A stretch of 25,733 nucleotides of DNA from a virus. Positions 1-25,733 of the stretch are shown here, piece after piece; position 1 is the stretch's first letter, and every line of letters starts with the position of its first letter. The stretch lies in IMG/VR virus record IMGVR_UViG_3300025319_000095, positions 1-25,733 of that record. One strand, 5' to 3'. Both the position numbers and the translations under genes were made by a program. Below the pieces are notes generated by a model. The model was not told the origin of the DNA. It saw only the letters and a list, made by a program, of their open reading frames with translations, and made no database searches.

Positions 1-353
1 TGATTTTCCAAGTTTACTACCGGTAAAGAATCTTTACCGCCCCCCCTAAAATCCAGGCTCATAACCTCTTGAACTTTTACCAGATCAACCCGATATCGAT
101 TAAAAATAATATTGGTTCTGGTCTTGCTTTCCTTAATCAGTAATCCAGATACGCAAAGAATCTCCAAAGATTTCATGACCGTGGGCTTTGAAACTCCAAG
201 CCATTCCTGAAGGTATCGAAGAGATCCAGTGTACCAGCTCTCACCATCCTGTGAAAAACCGTAAATAATAGCAAATACGTCCCTGTCGTTTCCTCTTAAT
301 CCAAGTCTCGAAACCATCCATCCCGAAACCTGATAGTAATGTAAATCCTGCAT
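1..353 (-). CDS. Helix-turn-helix (winged helix) protein, possible phage replication initiator, partial
   Basis: An open frame of 117 codons starts at ATG 353-351 and runs off the left edge, so the C-terminus is missing. Residues about 42-75 read as a winged helix: a tyrosine/leucine-rich first helix, then WLGVSKPTVMKSLEIL as recognition helix and LLIKESKTRTNIIFNRYRV as the wing. This layout is typical of the N-terminal DNA-binding domain of phage replication organizers (O/DnaD-like) and of MarR/PadR-type regulators. The start lies 3 bases after the stop of the DUF3850 gene, so the two are probably co-transcribed. The coding sequence contains a perfect 19-base palindrome at 21-39 and a run of seven G (7 C on the plus strand, 40-46). 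The DNA-binding fold is well supported; the replication role is inferred from position and the internal palindrome. Confidence 0.6.
   Translation of the reverse strand, partial: MQDLHYYQVSGWMVSRLGLRGNDRDVFAIIYGFSQDGESWYTGSLRYLQEWLGVSKPTVMKSLEILCVSGLLIKESKTRTNIIFNRYRVDLVKVQEVMSLDFRGGGKDSLPVVNLEN
21..39. repeat. Perfect 19-bp palindrome inside the putative replication gene
   Basis: The plus strand reads CGGTAAAGAATCTTTACCG, nine bases on each side of a central A. It lies in frame in the coding sequence (GGT AAA GAT TCT TTA CCG, G-K-D-S-L-P). Many phage replication initiators carry origin iterons within their own gene, as in lambda O. Only one copy is inside the window, so the role as an origin iteron is a guess. 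Confidence 0.5.
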
Positions 354-356
354 TCT

Positions 357-620
357 CTATATCATTCCGAGTATTGCATGACCCTCTTTTAGCCCGAAAT
401 TCGGGACTTCTTTTAAAACATAGGAAATAATCCTGAAAGTAGATCGGCCAGTATATTGCCCGTCTTTTACCTCGTCAAGTCTTAAAACATCACCGACTTG
501 AAAATCTCGGTCATTGTTCCTTAACTCAAAATTTTTCTCTCTCTTAAATACAGCATCAAAATATTGGGCGTCTGTTTTCAGGGCATGGTATCCCTTGTGA
601 TCTCCGTTCTTCATAAACAT
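357..620 (-). CDS. DUF3850 domain protein
   Basis: An 87-residue protein starting at ATG 620; a second in-frame ATG is two codons in. Nearly the whole length matches the DUF3850 pattern: H-A-L-K-T near residue 12, YFDAVFKREKNFELRNNDRD, then VGDVLRLDE, a YTGR motif and a C-terminal GLKEGHAILG. DUF3850 is a small ASCH/PUA-like beta-barrel family common in phages and integrated elements; members are suspected to bind RNA or modified nucleotides, but no reaction is established. It lies downstream of the terminator at 665-696 and 3 bases before the replication-like gene, so it probably starts a further unit. No TAnnTTTG box was found in the 621-664 leader. Confidence 0.75.
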   Translation of the reverse strand: MFMKNGDHKGYHALKTDAQYFDAVFKREKNFELRNNDRDFQVGDVLRLDEVKDGQYTGRSTFRIISYVLKEVPNFGLKEGHAILGMI

Positions 621-10349: not shown

Positions 10350-10804
10350 ATTTCAGTCGGTTTCACAGGCCAAACCACATTGAAAATGTCTGCCTGATTT
10401 GTGATATCCCTCAGGGCCTGACGGTAATCAGTCCAAGGTTTGAGATCGTTTTTATAGGGCGAATCAGATAGCATCACGTAATCGCATTCCCTCAGTTTAC
10501 TATTCCGGATATTCCGAATTGACTCCAGCTCTCTTTGAACTTTCTGGCTCAGTTCCTCACTCGTCAAATCCTGCTCAATATATCCGACCTCGTAAATCCC
10601 ATTTACTAAAACCGGAGTGCCTAAAACATACTTTTTGCTTGGGTTTTTAATTACTGCTTTTTCAGTCACAGAGTAAACCCCAAATTCGTTAAGAGTCTTT
10701 TCGCTCAGGTTTTCAGGAAAACTTGTATTAGGAAAATCGACCGCTAGTTCCTTTAACAGGTACGGGAATTTTATTACGCTCTTTTCTTTTTTCAAATATG
10801 TCAT
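10346..10804 (-). CDS. Tail fibre assembly chaperone-like protein
   Basis: 152 residues. The C-terminal half carries the motif order of phage tail assembly chaperone/fibre assembly proteins: a helix with RNIRNSKLRECDYVMLSDSP, then WTDYRQALRDI and a final VVWPVKP. The W-x2-YRQ-LRD-(x)-WP-x-P signature is characteristic. Such proteins help fibres fold or trimerise, and some remain on the tip. The N-terminal half holds beta strands with repeated N-P-S and G-x-P. It sits between the LamG-like fibre gene and another beta-rich protein and is coupled to both by ATGA overlaps. Confidence 0.65.
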   Translation of the reverse strand: MTYLKKEKSVIKFPYLLKELAVDFPNTSFPENLSEKTLNEFGVYSVTEKAVIKNPSKKYVLGTPVLVNGIYEVGYIEQDLTSEELSQKVQRELESIRNIRNSKLRECDYVMLSDSPYKNDLKPWTDYRQALRDITNQADIFNVVWPVKPTEI

Positions 10805-11517
10805 AGACCAAATCTCGATTTTGTTGCGTTATAATTTGCTAAAACTTCTGCGGCACTCAAAGCCCTGTTATAAATATGCACCTGGGAAATGGAACCGCCA
10901 AAATATTCCGCATCAGTCACATAGTTTCCTATCCGTGGTTTGAGTGAGTTTTTAGGCAACGTGTCGGCCGTAATCGTTGTGGAGGAATTAGATACTCCGT
11001 CCAAATAATAAATCAACTGCGTACCGTTAAAAGTCCCTGTGACAAAATGCCAGTTTCCGTCCCCTCTAATGTCTGTCGCTATATCACTGTTTTTCCAAGC
11101 TCCATCGTAATACGCCAGCCCGTCCAGTATCAGAGCCGAGGCGTTCCCTCCCACATTTAAATGGAAACAAACTGATCCGGTCGTTCCGTCAAAACCTCCA
11201 CTGATAACCCAACCTTTCGTGGAGGCGTTAGCTTTCACCCATGCTGAAATCGTGATATAATCCAAAGCCATAGTCGTTGAACTTTGCGCTAGCTCAACGT
11301 AATCATTTGTCCCGTCAAAGGTCAAATGCCCTCCAACCCCAGAATTAAACCCGACCCCGTTTACCAGAGTACCGTCATTATTACTCGGGCTTAAATCATT
11401 CCAAGCCGAACCAGATCCCGGATACGAAGCCGGATCCCCGGCATCCAAATGAAGAACCAAACCACTCTGAATAATGCCTTGCACAGCACCCCAGAAACCT
11501 AATTTGTTTACACTCAT
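10801..11517 (-). CDS. LamG/concanavalin-like jellyroll fibre protein
   Basis: 238 residues. From about residue 19 it reads as a LamG-like jellyroll: LVLHLDAGDPASY, WNDLS, GHLTFDGTNDYVEL, YITISAWVKA, GNWHFVTGTFNGTQLIYYLDG, and the ending ISQVHIYNRALSAAEVLANYNA that closes many laminin-G-type domains. Such domains bind glycans and are common in phage fibres and Bacteroidota surface proteins. In this phage it is probably a receptor-binding element or sits on the fibre shaft. Start and stop both overlap neighbours by 4 bases, placing it in the tail-fibre operon. No protease or lyase motif is visible. Confidence 0.75.
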   Translation of the reverse strand: MSVNKLGFWGAVQGIIQSGLVLHLDAGDPASYPGSGSAWNDLSPSNNDGTLVNGVGFNSGVGGHLTFDGTNDYVELAQSSTTMALDYITISAWVKANASTKGWVISGGFDGTTGSVCFHLNVGGNASALILDGLAYYDGAWKNSDIATDIRGDGNWHFVTGTFNGTQLIYYLDGVSNSSTTITADTLPKNSLKPRIGNYVTDAEYFGGSISQVHIYNRALSAAEVLANYNATKSRFGL

Positions 11518-12245
11518 ACACCGTGATTTTTAGAAATGACAGCGTTATAATTTGTCCCGTCATAAGTAATCGTGACAATGTCTTTACTGCTCAAAGTACC
11601 CGTCAAACTTGGAACCGATTTCCCAGCCCAATGCATAGTGGGCCAAGTGATAGTTCGACTTCCAGTAGTATCCTGAGTAATGATTAATTGGTAAGGCCCT
11701 CCAGACTTGGGATTCGAAAAGCTCAGGGTTACGTTGCCCGTTAAAGTCATTGACTGAACATTACCCTGATTCCAGTTAACCGTAACAGCTCCCGTACTAT
11801 TTCCCTTAGCAAATACAGGTGTAGCCAATTGACCTGTAACATCCAAGTTCGCAGGGAAAACAAAATTACCACTTGCGAAAGTGCCTGCCTGAATAGTCGA
11901 AGCGTTTTGATTATGAGTTACCGAAGCATAAAGCAAGTTTAAAGCGGTCAGGATATTGGACCAAGTCAGCTTCTTTAATAAAAAACCATCGTCACTATCC
12001 GTAAACCCGAACCGATCCCCTCCCACAGGGATCGCCTTGGTTGAGGCGGCATTTATTTGAGTGGCTACACTGTCTGGAATTGAACCAGTCCACGAGTACG
12101 GCAACGAGGCCCAAGCCGTGACACCGTTTCCGAGTTTCCCCTTCAAAGTATCTGTCTCGAATCCCAGCTCTCCGTCAGCTAAAATAGGGTTTGTAGCAGT
12201 CCATTGAGCCGCTGTACCTCTACGAATTTGAATAATATCTGCCAT
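11514..12245 (-). CDS. Tail fibre protein with Mtd-like N-terminal motif
   Basis: 243 residues. The first 50 residues (IIQIRRGTAAQWTATNPILA, DGELGFETDT, KLGNGVTAWASLPY) form the small beta-prism-like N-terminal module found in many phage tail fibres, including the major tropism determinant type. A linker containing QNASTIQAGTFASG leads into a C-terminal beta domain rich in Thr/Ser with WPTMHWAGKSVPSLTG. The N-terminal module usually attaches to the tail tip, so this protein likely follows the large tail-tip protein encoded just upstream and could anchor the LamG-like protein downstream. Stop and next start overlap by ATGA. Confidence 0.7.
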   Translation of the reverse strand: MADIIQIRRGTAAQWTATNPILADGELGFETDTLKGKLGNGVTAWASLPYSWTGSIPDSVATQINAASTKAIPVGGDRFGFTDSDDGFLLKKLTWSNILTALNLLYASVTHNQNASTIQAGTFASGNFVFPANLDVTGQLATPVFAKGNSTGAVTVNWNQGNVQSMTLTGNVTLSFSNPKSGGPYQLIITQDTTGSRTITWPTMHWAGKSVPSLTGTLSSKDIVTITYDGTNYNAVISKNHGV

Positions 12246-21114: not shown

Positions 21115-21861
21115 TTAAGCTCTCTCGTAAATAATTGCGCATCGACAGTTAATAACATTTCCAGCACTCCCCCGAGGATCTCCCGGATACTGCATCTTGT
21201 CAAAGCCTCCGTCCACTCTCCGAACCTCGAAAAACTCATCCATTTCAATCGCCCGTTTTGAATTCATTTCCCTGTGGGTGTCTCTCTCTCTCCCGTCTAC
21301 TGAAGCAAGCCATTTCTTTTTCAGCTTTTTTCCAAGTCCTGTGGCCTTCGCACTATTTATCGAGGCCCAATTACTGGTTCCGACTATCTCAGTTCTCGCA
21401 ATCCTTTCAGCTCTGTAAGTAGCGAATCGACCTTTATACTCTCCGATGTCTTTTATTATTTTCCTCGAAATTACCGAAATTCCTTCGCCATTACTGATAC
21501 CCTCTGTAAGTATAGGTCGGAGCCTTTGAATGACGTAGCGCCTACTAAAATCAATTATTTCCGTAATCCGATCGCCTCCGTTCTTTTCTAAAAAGTCATT
21601 TATTAAGTTTTCCCAGAACCCAGCCTTTAAAAGCTCTTTTTCATTTATCTGAAAAGCTCTAGCGGTCTTAATTATCATTTGCCTATAAACCGGCTCTATT
21701 CCCTTCTCGAAATATTTGTCAATATTCTTAACAGCTCCTTTTGGATTTCTGTCTACGGCTCTCTCGAATTCAGCAAACTGCTTTCTGAAAACCAGATCCA
21801 ATTTTAATTTGAATTCCAGCTCCAGGCGTTCACGTTTGCGGTTGATTTTCTCAATATTCAT
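21115..21861 (-). CDS. Phage head morphogenesis protein (SPP1 gp7 / Mu F-like)
   Basis: 248 residues. The C-terminal part has the full MuF-type signature: RAERIARTE (150-158) with NWAS, KWLASVDGRERDTHREM (183-199), and PGDPRGSAGNVINCRC (226-241). The N-terminal 145 residues are charged helices. These proteins are minor head components bound near the portal and thought to help DNA delivery. Length is normal for a form without a fused C-terminal toxin domain. Start ATG 21861 overlaps the portal gene's end by 11 bases. Confidence 0.85.
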   Translation of the reverse strand: MNIEKINRKRERLELEFKLKLDLVFRKQFAEFERAVDRNPKGAVKNIDKYFEKGIEPVYRQMIIKTARAFQINEKELLKAGFWENLINDFLEKNGGDRITEIIDFSRRYVIQRLRPILTEGISNGEGISVISRKIIKDIGEYKGRFATYRAERIARTEIVGTSNWASINSAKATGLGKKLKKKWLASVDGRERDTHREMNSKRAIEMDEFFEVRRVDGGFDKMQYPGDPRGSAGNVINCRCAIIYERA

Positions 21862-23140
21862 CGAACAATTTTCCTATTTCGCTGGATCCAAATTTAGCCT
21901 TTGACATGATCGCTTCAATATCGTATTCTTCCAGCCTTACCAGACCACTCGGAATGAGGTAAACATTTTCGTATTTGGGATCCACTTCTACGCCCGATTC
22001 CTTTTGCTTCTGGCCGATAGTTTTCCAGTACTGAATATTCAGAGTTTCCGCCAGCAACTTAGCATCTGTCTGAAGTTCCTCAATAGAATTGGTATCGTAA
22101 TCCAATCCCAGACCAACACCGAAACCATCAAAGCCGAAATGATTCATTCCATCACAGAACATTTCGACAATAGGTAAAATCGCATCTGTATAAGCTTGTT
22201 TTTTAGCCTCTCTCATTGAGGTTCCAAAGCTTGCGCTCGCATCCGTCTGGTCAAAGATCAAATACGGGATATGGTAGACTATGCAAATATCCCTGAGGAC
22301 TTGCTTATTCGCTTCGTACAGGTTCAAATCTACTGGACTCAATCCAATCGGAATGAATGAAATATCTCCAGAAGTCATCAACCATTTACCCTTGTTACCT
22401 GGGCCGTATGCCTTTTCGCTCAGAAGCTTTTCGGCTCTGGCTCTCTGGGTATCGTCCATAGGATCTGCCAGCCTATCCGTGATAATTCCAGCAACTCCAC
22501 CGTTTTGAATAGCTGCCAGGTCGGCTGTGTCGATATCCTTGGTCTTCTGAGTAACCGTCCTCAGGGAATTCATTGGGCTGTTCCCGTCTTCGCCAACTCC
22601 AACCTGATCGAACTTTAAAGACTCATTAAAGATGAAAATCATTTCCTCTCTGGGAATTACACGGCCGGTATCAGTAATCAAAAAGCCTGACGGCCCTTTA
22701 AAAGCTTGCTCATAAATAGGCTGAACAAAGTTACTTGGAATGACATGTACTTCAGTCCAACGGCCAGAGCTTAACTTCGGAACGTAGATGTATAAAGATC
22801 CTGTCGAAAGTAAGAAACCATAAGCCTGATAAAGGAACTGAAATCGGCTCTGGTAACTATTAGGCCGCTCCAGAATCTCCAGAATTCTATGAATTTTCAA
22901 CAGGGTTTTGTTCCCTTGCTTATCAGACTGGAAGACTGTAAAAGGAACTTTTGCGCTCTTTTTAGCAATCCAGCTAATAACAGCATAAACGTATTTTACC
23001 CTCTCAAAATCCTCGACATATTTCGTCTTGTCATCACTTCCAATAAAAGGGGCGTAGCTCCCAACGAATGAACTGGATCTTTTAACCTCCCGACCTCGAA
23101 AGGTGAAAAACTTTATCACGTCCTGAATCTGTTTGATCAT
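21851..23140 (-). CDS. Portal protein, HK97 family
   Basis: 429 residues. Motifs of HK97-type portals include VYAVISWIAKKSAKVPFTVFQ near residue 50, a helix with ILEILERPNSYQSRFQFLYQ (about 86-105), LLSTGSLYIYVPKL, and VGVGEDGNSPMNSLRTVTQ (P-x-x-S-L wing motif). A stem part SASFGTSMREAKKQAYTDAILPI precedes the C-terminal helices. It forms the dodecameric vertex ring through which DNA is packed. It follows the large terminase by 29 bases; its ATG at 23140 is the first in the frame after the MIKQ start. Confidence 0.9.
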   Translation of the reverse strand: MIKQIQDVIKFFTFRGREVKRSSSFVGSYAPFIGSDDKTKYVEDFERVKYVYAVISWIAKKSAKVPFTVFQSDKQGNKTLLKIHRILEILERPNSYQSRFQFLYQAYGFLLSTGSLYIYVPKLSSGRWTEVHVIPSNFVQPIYEQAFKGPSGFLITDTGRVIPREEMIFIFNESLKFDQVGVGEDGNSPMNSLRTVTQKTKDIDTADLAAIQNGGVAGIITDRLADPMDDTQRARAEKLLSEKAYGPGNKGKWLMTSGDISFIPIGLSPVDLNLYEANKQVLRDICIVYHIPYLIFDQTDASASFGTSMREAKKQAYTDAILPIVEMFCDGMNHFGFDGFGVGLGLDYDTNSIEELQTDAKLLAETLNIQYWKTIGQKQKESGVEVDPKYENVYLIPSGLVRLEEYDIEAIMSKAKFGSSEIGKLFDEY

Positions 23141-23169: not shown

Positions 23170-24414
23170 CTATAAACCAAACGCTGGTTTCCGTCCGAGT
23201 AGCAAATCAGTAGCACCCCAAACCAAAGCGTCAACCCTGTCCGGGGACTTATCACTAGAGCCTGAAAAATTAATCATCTGCTTTTCAAGCTCAGGATGAA
23301 AGCCGACATGAAATACTTTTCCTTGCTCATAAAGAGCGAAAATCGGTTCAGCTCTCACATATTTTCCCTTGGTAGCTGTTACCAACTTTATCCTAACAGC
23401 GATCCCAGATCCTAAAAGCTTATGTTTTATAATCGTTTCGACCATGTCACCTCCTTGGTTCTTTTCAGCAACTATTGCCTCTGCATTCCATTTCTTAACC
23501 TGATTTAATGCGACAGTTGACCACTCGTCAGGGCTGTATCTACCTGAATTATCCTCCAGTACATAGCCATGATTCAAAGAGTCCAAACCCATAGTGATAA
23601 TGCCAGTTTCATCGCTATGCTCATTTTTAGAAACGGCAGGATCTATGGCCACCACGATTCGCTTTAAATCAGGTTTTACATTTACCCGAGCCCTTTCAAT
23701 ATCGACTTGGCTCCAAAGCTGACCTGCTGCACCTTCAATAAACTTTCCGTAGATCTCTTGCTGAATCATCTGCTCATTCATTCTACCTATTTCAAGTGAC
23801 AGATCGTCAATATCGGTCTTTGAAAGTAACGGATTATCGTAGCTCGAGAACTCCAGGCAACGATAACCCTTAACCCCTGCCATTGCGTTTTTATACAAAC
23901 TGTAAAACCTATGCTCTCGCTCCTTCACGAACTTACCTTTAGGAACTCCGGCAGCAATTAACATCGAACCATCGTAATCCATTAACATCGGTAAAACGGC
24001 ATTGGTAAATAGGTAATCATTTTTTAAGATGATCCCAGCCTCATTGAGGAAAATTATATTGTACCCGAAACCTTCCCAGTTTTCAGGCCTGTCAGCGCTC
24101 CGAAAATCGCAATACCCTCCACCGACAGTGAGTAACTGCATGACCTTTTTCTGGGCTGAATAACTATACGGGATCTTTGATTTTTTCAGCTCAGGCAAAA
24201 AATATCGTTCGATATACCTGTCAATATTAGCTGAGATTGTGTCACCCCAAAGTAACTTTTTTCCCTCCAGCATCCATTCGATAAAAGCATTTGCAGCCCC
24301 TTTAGTGGCTCCAAATCTTCGACCCTTGGTTACTATCAAATAACGGACTTCAGGGCTATTATTAAAAAAGATCTCTAATTGGGCCTGAGTGTAGCTCAAA
24401 TTTAGATTGATCAT
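23170..24414 (-). CDS. Terminase large subunit (ATPase and nuclease)
   Basis: 414 residues. The ATPase part has the Walker A-like TKGRRFGATKG (29-39) and a Walker B strand NIIFLNEAG (119-127) with catalytic Glu125; the usual Asp of 'DE' is Asn here, as in several phage terminase groups. The RNase H-like nuclease part has VVAIDPA with Asp258, SDETGI, VAEKNQGGDMV with Glu317 and DRVDALVW with Asp395. It pumps DNA into the head and cuts the concatemer. ATGA overlap with the small 86-residue gene upstream, and the portal gene follows. Confidence 0.9.
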   Translation of the reverse strand: MINLNLSYTQAQLEIFFNNSPEVRYLIVTKGRRFGATKGAANAFIEWMLEGKKLLWGDTISANIDRYIERYFLPELKKSKIPYSYSAQKKVMQLLTVGGGYCDFRSADRPENWEGFGYNIIFLNEAGIILKNDYLFTNAVLPMLMDYDGSMLIAAGVPKGKFVKEREHRFYSLYKNAMAGVKGYRCLEFSSYDNPLLSKTDIDDLSLEIGRMNEQMIQQEIYGKFIEGAAGQLWSQVDIERARVNVKPDLKRIVVAIDPAVSKNEHSDETGIITMGLDSLNHGYVLEDNSGRYSPDEWSTVALNQVKKWNAEAIVAEKNQGGDMVETIIKHKLLGSGIAVRIKLVTATKGKYVRAEPIFALYEQGKVFHVGFHPELEKQMINFSGSSDKSPDRVDALVWGATDLLLGRKPAFGL

Positions 24415-24671
24415 TTTTTACTCAAATCGAGTTTAAATTTCTTGCGAAGATTATCCCAAAGAGCCTCGAATAAAACTTCCTCTTTTTCAGGGGTCACGCC
24501 TTCGCAGTCCATTCTCATTGAGTTCGTGTACAGGGTTTTTCCTACTTTGAATTTTACAATATACCAGACCTTGCCAACCGGGGCGTAATTCCCTTTCCAG
24601 ACTTTAGATTTGACTTTCTCGTAAATGAATTCTGGCTTATCCGAGCCGTCTTTTCCTTTCTCACTTTCCAT
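24411..24671 (-). CDS. Small basic protein between terminase genes, unknown function
   Basis: 86 residues, Lys-rich, with a beta-type middle (VKSKVWKGNYAPVGKVWYIVKFKVGKTLYTNSM) and an end helix (EEVLFEALWDNLRKKFKLDLSKK). No known motif. It is translationally coupled to the large terminase (ATGA), so a packaging role is likely from context, perhaps a DNA- or terminase-binding accessory. The first 100 bases upstream (24672-24781) hold no called gene; see the micro-ORF remark in the findings. Confidence 0.55.
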   Translation of the reverse strand: MESEKGKDGSDKPEFIYEKVKSKVWKGNYAPVGKVWYIVKFKVGKTLYTNSMRMDCEGVTPEKEEVLFEALWDNLRKKFKLDLSKK

Positions 24672-24781: not shown

Positions 24782-25153
24782 TTAATTCTCAGAATCGCCC
24801 TTTATCACTCTACGGGTAATTACTAGCTGTCCGTCAATCTTTCCCTCGATATCATGGACATTCATGCTCAAGGCTCTCTGTTCCTCTTTAGTAGCAATCA
24901 ATTTATACAGGGCTAATTGAGTGGTTGCGTTCTTCGACTGATACCATTTCCCCCTCAGGGTCGCTTTAGTCAGGACTCGAACTTTTTCGATTTCTTCAAA
25001 AATCCTTTTATATCCGTCCGATTCAGCCGGAAAATGCTCATAAAAGGTACTCTTCGCACAGGGTAAAAAAGCAACGCATTCTTCAATAAACATGAGTTTG
25101 TTCTTCTCAATAGCTTCAATCGCTTTCTTTTCCAGATCTTCTGTATTGTACAT
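24782..25153 (-). CDS. terS: Terminase small subunit
   Basis: 123 residues. An N-terminal helix (LEKKAIEAIEKNKLMFIEECVAFL) leads into CAKSTFYEHFP, the recognition helix of a helix-turn-helix typical of small terminases and TetR-like proteins. A central helix set follows (IFEEIEKVRVLTKATLRGKWYQ, TTQLALYKLIATKEEQRAL), and a C-terminal strand. The pattern 'NATTQLALYKLIATKEE' with the Trp/Lys-rich start is common in Bacteroidota phage small terminases. It recognises the packaging site and loads DNA on the large subunit. Starts at ATG 25153, 2 bases after the upstream gene. Confidence 0.75.
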   Translation of the reverse strand: MYNTEDLEKKAIEAIEKNKLMFIEECVAFLPCAKSTFYEHFPAESDGYKRIFEEIEKVRVLTKATLRGKWYQSKNATTQLALYKLIATKEEQRALSMNVHDIEGKIDGQLVITRRVIKGDSEN

Positions 25154-25155
25154 GG

Positions 25156-25733
25156 CTATTTTTTGTGTTTAGGATCCAATATCAAAGGAACCGCGGTTTT
25201 CCAATTTATTTTGTGATGCAACCTTCTGTGTGTTTCTCCCATCATTGCGATCTTAACACAGCTCGGGGCGGTCATTACCGTGTAAAAGGATTTGACATAA
25301 GTTCCCTGGGCTCGGTACATTTCCGACATACCTCCTTTTACCGACTGAGTGGCCTTGTGATTCAGGGACACCGAATGAATGGTAAAAAAGAGCGATCCTC
25401 GGTTCCCTTTACCGACATAGGTATTTACGTCCTCGTTCTGTCTACCGACCCACCAGAGCCGTTTTTTAGTGTCACAAAGAAAAGAATTCATAGCTTTTCT
25501 TCTAAGCTTGATTTTATTCCCGAAAGATCCATTTCCACCTCCGAGATAATCTCCGTTCTGGGCCATACATAAAACGACAGCTCCAGAGCTATTCAGAAAA
25601 TCAATCATGATCTGGAAGGTCTTATTTATGTTCTTTATCGACCTATCCTTATACTCATACAAATGATTGAATTTAAAGCTGAACCCTGTGTAATCATCGT
25701 CAAGCTGGATGAAGTATCTGTAACCTCTCTTTT
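25156..25733 (-). CDS. Putative GT-A glycosyltransferase, TET-associated (TAGT)-like, partial
   Basis: The frame is open through the right window edge; 191 residues are visible and the N-terminus is missing. A TTG at 25662 is not needed as a start because coding signal continues upstream. The visible start reads RGYRYFIQLDDDYTGFSFKF: a hydrophobic strand followed by D-D-D, the metal- and nucleotide-sugar-binding DxD of GT-A glycosyltransferases. A helical stretch follows, then LCMAQNGDYLGGGNG, and a C-terminal HRRLHHKINW with a His/Arg cluster. This layout reminds me of phage TET-associated glycosyltransferases that add sugars to hydroxymethylated bases. That family link is from memory and needs checking. 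It is encoded directly before the small terminase. If right, the phage may carry glycosylated DNA as protection against host nucleases. Confidence 0.5.
   Translation of the reverse strand, partial: KRGYRYFIQLDDDYTGFSFKFNHLYEYKDRSIKNINKTFQIMIDFLNSSGAVVLCMAQNGDYLGGGNGSFGNKIKLRRKAMNSFLCDTKKRLWWVGRQNEDVNTYVGKGNRGSLFFTIHSVSLNHKATQSVKGGMSEMYRAQGTYVKSFYTVMTAPSCVKIAMMGETHRRLHHKINWKTAVPLILDPKHKK

Follow-up and report, generated by a model that had tools for sequence, protein, structure and literature searches.

A phage glycosyltransferase gene of the TAGT family and its conserved ParB-domain partner upstream of the terminase genes

The window analysed here corresponds to an entire IMG/VR record (25,733 bases), and its right edge cuts a minus-strand open reading frame (25156-25731) that is followed by the terminase and portal genes. 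The features of this region are:

25156..25731, minus strand: TAGT glycosyltransferase, C-terminal 191 residues (open reading frame and PF20691), with 94 N-terminal residues beyond the right edge
25690..25707, minus strand: QLDDDY, residues 103-108, metal/sugar-nucleotide DxD-type motif (sequence and alignments A1/A2)
25426..25437, minus strand: NEDV, residues 193-196, candidate catalytic/acceptor-side acid of a GT-A enzyme (alignment A2)
25213..25218, minus strand: HH, residues 266-267, conserved C-terminal pair (alignments A1/A2)
24782..25153, minus strand: terminase small subunit-like ORF of 123 aa, named by position and without a family match, beginning 2 bases past the TAGT stop
24411..24671, minus strand: ORF of 86 aa between the small and large terminase genes (ORF list)
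23170..24414, minus strand: terminase large subunit, TerL (Terminase_6C, 2e-13)
21851..23140, minus strand: portal protein (Phage_portal, 4.9e-42)

The original prediction, made from the window alone, had read the cut-off frame as a GT-A glycosyltransferase of the TAGT (TET-associated glycosyltransferase) family adjacent to the packaging genes, and had proposed extending the contig to the right. A viral-contig scan retrieved two IMG/VR contigs overlapping the window at 100% identity, L002 over 6104 bp and L003 over 1997 bp, and in both the gene is completed to 285 aa with an ATG start (L003:7605-8462). The anticipated QLDDDY, glycine-rich (QNGDYLGGGNG) and His/Arg-rich (RRLHHKI, at the protein end) motifs are all present in the frame. 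The fragment matches PF20691 with 57.5 bits over profile positions 77-205, and no other Pfam family (hmmscan; cut-off 27.5); the full-length protein reaches 116.2 bits over positions 3-205, about four times the curated cut-off. In alignment A2, which comprises 38 relatives, D106 and D107 are invariant, as are N193 and D195 of the NEDV motif; the HH pair is invariant in alignment A1, and H267 is kept in at least 90% of A2, which includes divergent second copies. Given the invariance of these key residues, the TAGT signal is far beyond chance.

The AF2 model of the protein (pLDDT 90.5, pTM 0.89) has as its best PDB fold matches GT-A enzymes, including LH3/ColGalT1, TarP, SunS and GalNAc-T2, with TM up to about 0.5; ADP-glucose pyrophosphorylase, a related nucleotidyltransferase, stands further down the list. 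These model-based matches favour sugar-nucleotide chemistry and say nothing on the acceptor. No match was obtained by phmmer against PDB sequences or against NCBIfam. The Pfam family shares with the window protein the full-length match, the GT-A fold and the DDD and (N)ED motifs, and the cut-off gene is, by profile and predicted structure, a GT-A glycosyltransferase of the TAGT family, as had been proposed.

L003 contributes about 7.9 kb beyond the right edge of the window. Its first bases (GGGGGGCGGTAAAAATTCTTTACC) are those of the window's left end (GGGGGGCGGTAAAGATTCTTTACC) save one change, and the repeat GGGGGGCGGTAAA(G/A)ATTCTTTACC occurs at window 1-45 and at L003:1-40. This repeat is probably where the two contigs broke, and at about 34 kb the genome is nearly closed; since the end repeat is shared and both pieces encode parts of what seems to be one replication protein, the window and L003 together are probably about the whole genome. 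Their 57 ORFs contain 21 Pfam families, including portal, terminase, capsid, protease, SSB, TAGT, ParB_N and Gly_transf_sug (hmmscan). The same scan found no TET/JBP, thymidylate synthase, dCMP hydroxymethylase or base kinase, and no ParA/CbiA/AAA_31 family. Partner oxygenase or base-synthesis genes had been expected to the right of the window; L003 holds instead a ParB-domain protein, a GT32-like glycosyltransferase, an SSB and a C5-methyltransferase-like protein. The C5-methyltransferase-like gene lies at L003:1242-1967 (PHROG 757, 2e-64; PPC and ENP motifs by eye), and the GT32/OCH1-like gene, which encodes a DXD motif, lies at L003:6228-6902 and overlaps the gene of the ParB-domain protein (Gly_transf_sug, 2.7e-10). 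The phage thus has two different glycosyltransferases within one operon; T-even phages with disaccharide bases likewise have two.

The ParB-domain protein, hereafter the partner, is encoded directly upstream of the TAGT with an overlap of 20 bases; it has 241 aa and a ParB_N domain (PF02195, 31 bits against a cut-off of 26.3). In a predicted model its first half matches the structures of ParB, Noc and KorB, with weaker matches to sulfiredoxin and free serine kinase, and its C-terminal domain is helical, without a clear structural match of its own among the matches listed. An alignment of 41 partners reveals a variable ParB_N half and about 115 strongly conserved C-terminal residues, with the consensus YTxKI..P.YEP.GE.P...RH.VFNY.KIAEYYAHA..E.Q.LME.SALVIIDF.KAIENG (alignment A4). 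ParB_N is absent in about one sixth of the partners (12 of 80 independently found partners are shorter than 190 aa, some of them cut by contig ends, and complete short ones include those of L019, L028, L030, L055 and L064) and is therefore not indispensable to the pair. In the proteins scanned, the C-terminal domain was hit by none of the Pfam or NCBIfam models except for a TetR_C_19 match in the divergent L189 that was weak and below threshold, and NCBIfam gives for the partner only weak matches of ParB-domain type.

PHROG 620 (ParB-like partition protein) spans the C-terminal domain of the partner, and PHROG 842 (beta-glucosyl-HMC-alpha-glucosyltransferase) holds the TAGT; these are separate entries named by analogy, and their descriptions are silent on the pairing and on the separate conserved C-terminal domain. 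A role of the partner as a partition protein was considered and rejected: the ParB_N domain is common to the partner and to ParABS systems, but it is variable and optional, conservation resides in the C-terminal domain, and no ParA ATPase is encoded among the 57 ORFs of the window phage. The N-terminal domain is also similar to the N-terminal part of ParB-DNA methyltransferase proteins (PHROG 498 at 1e-20 and 4e-51; PADLOC Type II MTase, MTase_II, at 1e-38). These phage DNA methyltransferases fused to ParB_N are a parallel pairing of the domain with a DNA-modifying enzyme; in the present pair, by contrast, the glycosyltransferase is encoded apart from the ParB_N protein, which has a C-terminal domain of its own. 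Apart from such methyltransferase proteins with a ParB-like N-terminus, neither the TAGT nor the partner matched any defence-system model.

The association of the two genes is nearly constant. Wherever upstream DNA was available (74 loci, some of them near-duplicates), the partner was found upstream of the TAGT by HMMs built in this work, in 73 cases directly adjacent; in the remaining locus, L058, a methyltransferase-like gene lies in between. The two frames typically overlap by 8, 11, 14, 17 or 20 bases, as expected under translational coupling. As an independent test, viral contigs were scanned with the C-terminal domain of the partner alone, which yielded at least 586 loci, and the best 80 were inspected: a TAGT is present at all 80, directly following the partner in 77 by a strict rule, adjacent in two that the rule had missed owing to a TAGT frame with a long upstream start, and separated by a methyltransferase-like gene in one (L169). 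In addition, an unbiased Pfam scan for TAGT was run on two sets of 295 genomes, one from the order of L051 (Bacteroides) and one from that of L066 (Blautia). The family scored over the cut-off in 9 of the 590 genomes, two of which are the centre genomes, picked because they carry a TAGT, and in all nine a gene of ParB_N type adjoins the TAGT. Divergent TAGTs are among the nine: L187 and L188, with a different ParB C-terminus, L189, and L200, where a tandem TAGT pair is followed by the ParB gene. In these four the TAGT was confirmed and ParB_N found, with three of the four ParB_N scores 0.2 to 1.8 bits below the curated cut-off (hmmscan). Since divergent TAGTs also adjoin ParB_N genes, the association holds for the sampled prophage TAGTs in general and is not confined to one clade. 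The conserved context of the present TAGT clade is a ParB-domain partner and not TET: unlike the TET-associated setting of PF20691, the window phage is without a TET/JBP gene, and what accompanies its TAGT in a conserved manner is a ParB-domain protein whose C-terminal domain is distinct.

Loci of the TAGT pair are distributed in Bacteroidota, several Firmicutes, Verrucomicrobiota, Kiritimatiellae, Spirochaetes, Actinobacteria and Proteobacteria, and named carriers include the Lactobacillus phages phi jlb1 and c5, Nocardia NTR1, Porphyromonas phage005, Vibrio pv27 and the archaeal virus HHTV-2. In phi jlb1, NTR1, phage005, the E. coli Rac prophage and many contigs the terminase genes directly follow the pair; the original prediction had noted the neighbouring terminase genes in the window. 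A Rac-type pair, with at least 80% of the query covered, is present in 885 of 5426 complete E. coli genomes, and its TAGT is labelled GREB1-related protein in RefSeq. Two E. coli TAGT alleles differ by 12 changes in all (dN 0.006, dS 0.041), values consistent with purifying selection on the small basis of those 12 changes. In K-12 strains the pair is reduced to a ynaK stump: YnaK corresponds to the first 84 residues of the partner, and the frame runs into a deletion that joins the partner start to ydaY. The ynaK of the Rac prophage in E. coli K-12 NCM3722 (L087:3459-3722) is accordingly a truncated partner remnant and not a full gene.

The TAGT family was reportedly described by Iyer et al. 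in 2013, and relatives may use other acceptors, as GREB1 on protein. The T6 ggt protein (beta-glucosyl-HMC-alpha-glucosyltransferase) matches PF20691 with 39.4 bits, has IDDD and CED motifs by eye, and shares with the window TAGT the Pfam family and a predicted GT-A fold (PMC13216743). It glucosylates phage DNA by putting a second glucose on glucosyl-hmC (PMC13216743; PMC13390438). Unlike the paired TAGTs, ggt lies beside gene 42, which encodes dCMP hydroxymethylase, and is without a neighbouring ParB gene. The direct comparison of alignment A2 with T6 ggt gave a match that is not significant (hhalign), so the kinship of this clade with ggt is that of the Pfam profile. Several phages carry distant TAGTs without a recognisable alpha- or beta-GT, which has been deemed surprising (PMC13216743, NAR 2026), and phages of the window type match this description. 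The word ParB has no occurrence in the main text of that paper, and among abstracts joining ParB, glycosyltransferase and DNA modification none was found on a TAGT and ParB pair. The pairing suggests an answer to the puzzle of TAGTs that lack the usual enzymes, one of genomic context only.

The origin of an acceptor was sought in 23 TAGT records. The thymidylate-synthase family (PF00303) occurs in one, Vibrio pv27, with positive controls matched. PF12851 (TET/JBP) gave 0 of 23 and 0 of 14 in genome scans in which no positive control matched either, and the absence of TET/JBP is consequently that seen by hmmscan in the phage's own 57 ORFs. C5 methylase as a general source of the acceptor was rejected, PF00145 (2 of 23) and PHROG 757 (2 of 23, one weak) being sporadic. 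The gene annotations of Lactobacillus c5 and of E. coli Rac, which in both cases include many hypothetical proteins, name no hydroxylating enzyme. Since PF00303 is confined to pv27, C5 methylases are sporadic and no hydroxylase appears in the c5 and Rac lists or in the 57 ORFs, a route via a known hydroxylated base is unlikely in these phages; because the known hydroxylating enzymes are missing, either an unrecognised enzyme makes the acceptor or the TAGT uses an ordinary base.

The reading we prefer, to which we give about an even chance, is that the pair is a ParB-guided two-subunit phage DNA glycosyltransferase that serves the self-marking or shielding of virion DNA, or counter-defence. The TAGT, with its GT-A fold, would be the catalytic half and would take the sugar from a nucleotide sugar. 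The conserved C-terminal domain of the partner may bind or activate it, in a complex to which the obligate pairing and the gene overlap point. Where present, the ParB-type domain would bring this complex to DNA in a nucleotide-dependent manner, as its fold and the ParB_N-methyltransferase proteins suggest, and DNA would be the acceptor by analogy with the family. The sugar would be placed at the phage's own sites or close to them, at a late stage of infection and just ahead of packaging, and the product may shield or mark the virion DNA against host nucleases, a role suggested by the late-operon position and the dispensability of the pair in some phages. The neighbouring enzymes (GT32-like, radical SAM, N6/N4 methylase, P-loop fusion, second TAGT) would vary the decoration. 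A bolder form of this proposal, which we consider rather improbable, is that the ParB-type subunit loads the TAGT onto chosen phage sites and the sugar is joined to a base without prior hydroxylation, for example at an exocyclic amine, which would give a new modified base in about one sixth of sequenced E. coli.

The main rival is glycosylation of a protein or other non-DNA acceptor (capsid, terminase or a host protein), with the partner as an acceptor-recognition or activating subunit. The closest solved folds are indeed protein glycosyltransferases (LH3/ColGalT1, SunS, GalNAc-T2) and TarP, but at a TM of about 0.5 or lower these neighbours share only the GT-A fold. T6 ggt, the sole cited family member with a known reaction, acts on DNA (PMC13216743). 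Such an acceptor would agree with the position of the pair at the head of a structural operon and with the lack of any hydroxylated-base source among the genes found in the window phage and in the c5 and Rac lists; the ParB_N domain, whose optional nature also speaks for this rival, is nevertheless a ParB DNA-binding-type domain that most partners carry, and divergent TAGT clades too adjoin ParB_N genes. Overall, we judge a non-DNA acceptor unlikely.

ParB proteins bind specific sites, and the partner and TAGT might in principle mark the cos or pac site for correct cutting by terminase, given that the pair immediately precedes the terminase genes in many loci and is the first pair past cos in phage c5 (order: cos, partner, TAGT, small ORFs, TerL). 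However, in T4-sized Vibrio pv27 the pair adjoins a helicase and terminase genes are absent from the 8 kb around it, and in HHTV-2 nearly 3 kb separate the pair from TerL. Furthermore, the Lactobacillus phages LL-Ku and Ld25A have an internal deletion that fuses the partner start to the late part of the TAGT, and Ld17 lacks the partner as well as some of the TAGT, yet all three retain terminase. Because these are isolated phages with a broken pair, the pair is not needed for the virion on their hosts; this dispensability is easier to reconcile with an accessory function, for instance counter-defence, than with one essential to packaging, and the marking of a packaging site appears quite improbable.

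The classical scheme, in which the TAGT acts on hydroxymethylcytosine or hydroxymethyluracil supplied by a TET/JBP or base-synthesis enzyme elsewhere in the phage, draws on the family name, on the T6 precedent and on pv27, which has both the TAGT pair and a thymidylate-synthase-family gene. It was already disfavoured by the missing TET/JBP, thymidylate-synthase and kinase genes among the 57 ORFs of a nearly closed phage and by the single PF00303 record among 23; the PF12851 scans also gave 0 of 23 and 0 of 14, though no control matched. This scheme is very unlikely. Least probable of all is a toxin-antitoxin-like or superinfection-exclusion pair, in which the TAGT would damage the host or an incoming phage under the control of the overlapping gene upstream: two overlapping genes with a regulator-like one first, their frequency in prophages and the truncated partner retained alone in K-12 recall such systems, but the pair occupies a late-operon position, not that of a lysogeny-expressed cassette, and among defence models the matches are confined to methyltransferase proteins whose N-terminus is ParB-like.

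If the pair glycosylates DNA, an unrecognised DNA modification is present in many temperate phages and many E. coli genomes. The idea is directly testable, since natural contrasts between intact and broken pairs exist in Lactobacillus phages (c5 against Ld25A or LL-Ku), and K-12, with only the ynaK stump, is a natural negative.

Other genes of the window phage are also of interest. No reverse transcriptase is present among its Pfam families, and there is thus no evidence of a diversity-generating element; a laminin-G/lectin-type protein and a Mtd_N (major tropism determinant N-terminal) protein are encoded at window 10801-12245 on the minus strand and are likely receptor-binding parts. ASCH domains are proposed readers of modified bases, and the DUF3850 protein at window 357-620 (minus strand), with weak ASCH (PUA-like) similarity, may by analogy be part of the same modification biology.

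The surroundings of the pair vary among loci. Tandem TAGT genes in the order partner-TAGT-TAGT occur in L053, L065, L066, L067, L071 and L199; the first copy is the more divergent, and the C-terminal HH is missing in the two copies inspected (L053, L065). A radical SAM gene, a candidate base-modifying companion, lies beside the pair in seven loci, mostly Clostridia prophages: after the TAGT in L056, L057, L061, L065, L066 and L067, and before the partner in L036. An N6/N4 DNA methylase is found beside the pair in L028, an amidoligase gene and a glutamine-amidotransferase-like gene come after the TAGT at L007:7966-9708, and at L069:6498-7901 the TAGT has an N-terminal P-loop fusion (weak AAA_18; Walker A GPSCSGKST). 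Finally, cytidylyltransferase-like and HAD-like genes, recognised by eye, lie at L200:1-1550, upstream of the divergent TAGT pair, and these neighbours suggest a CDP-activated donor in that prophage.
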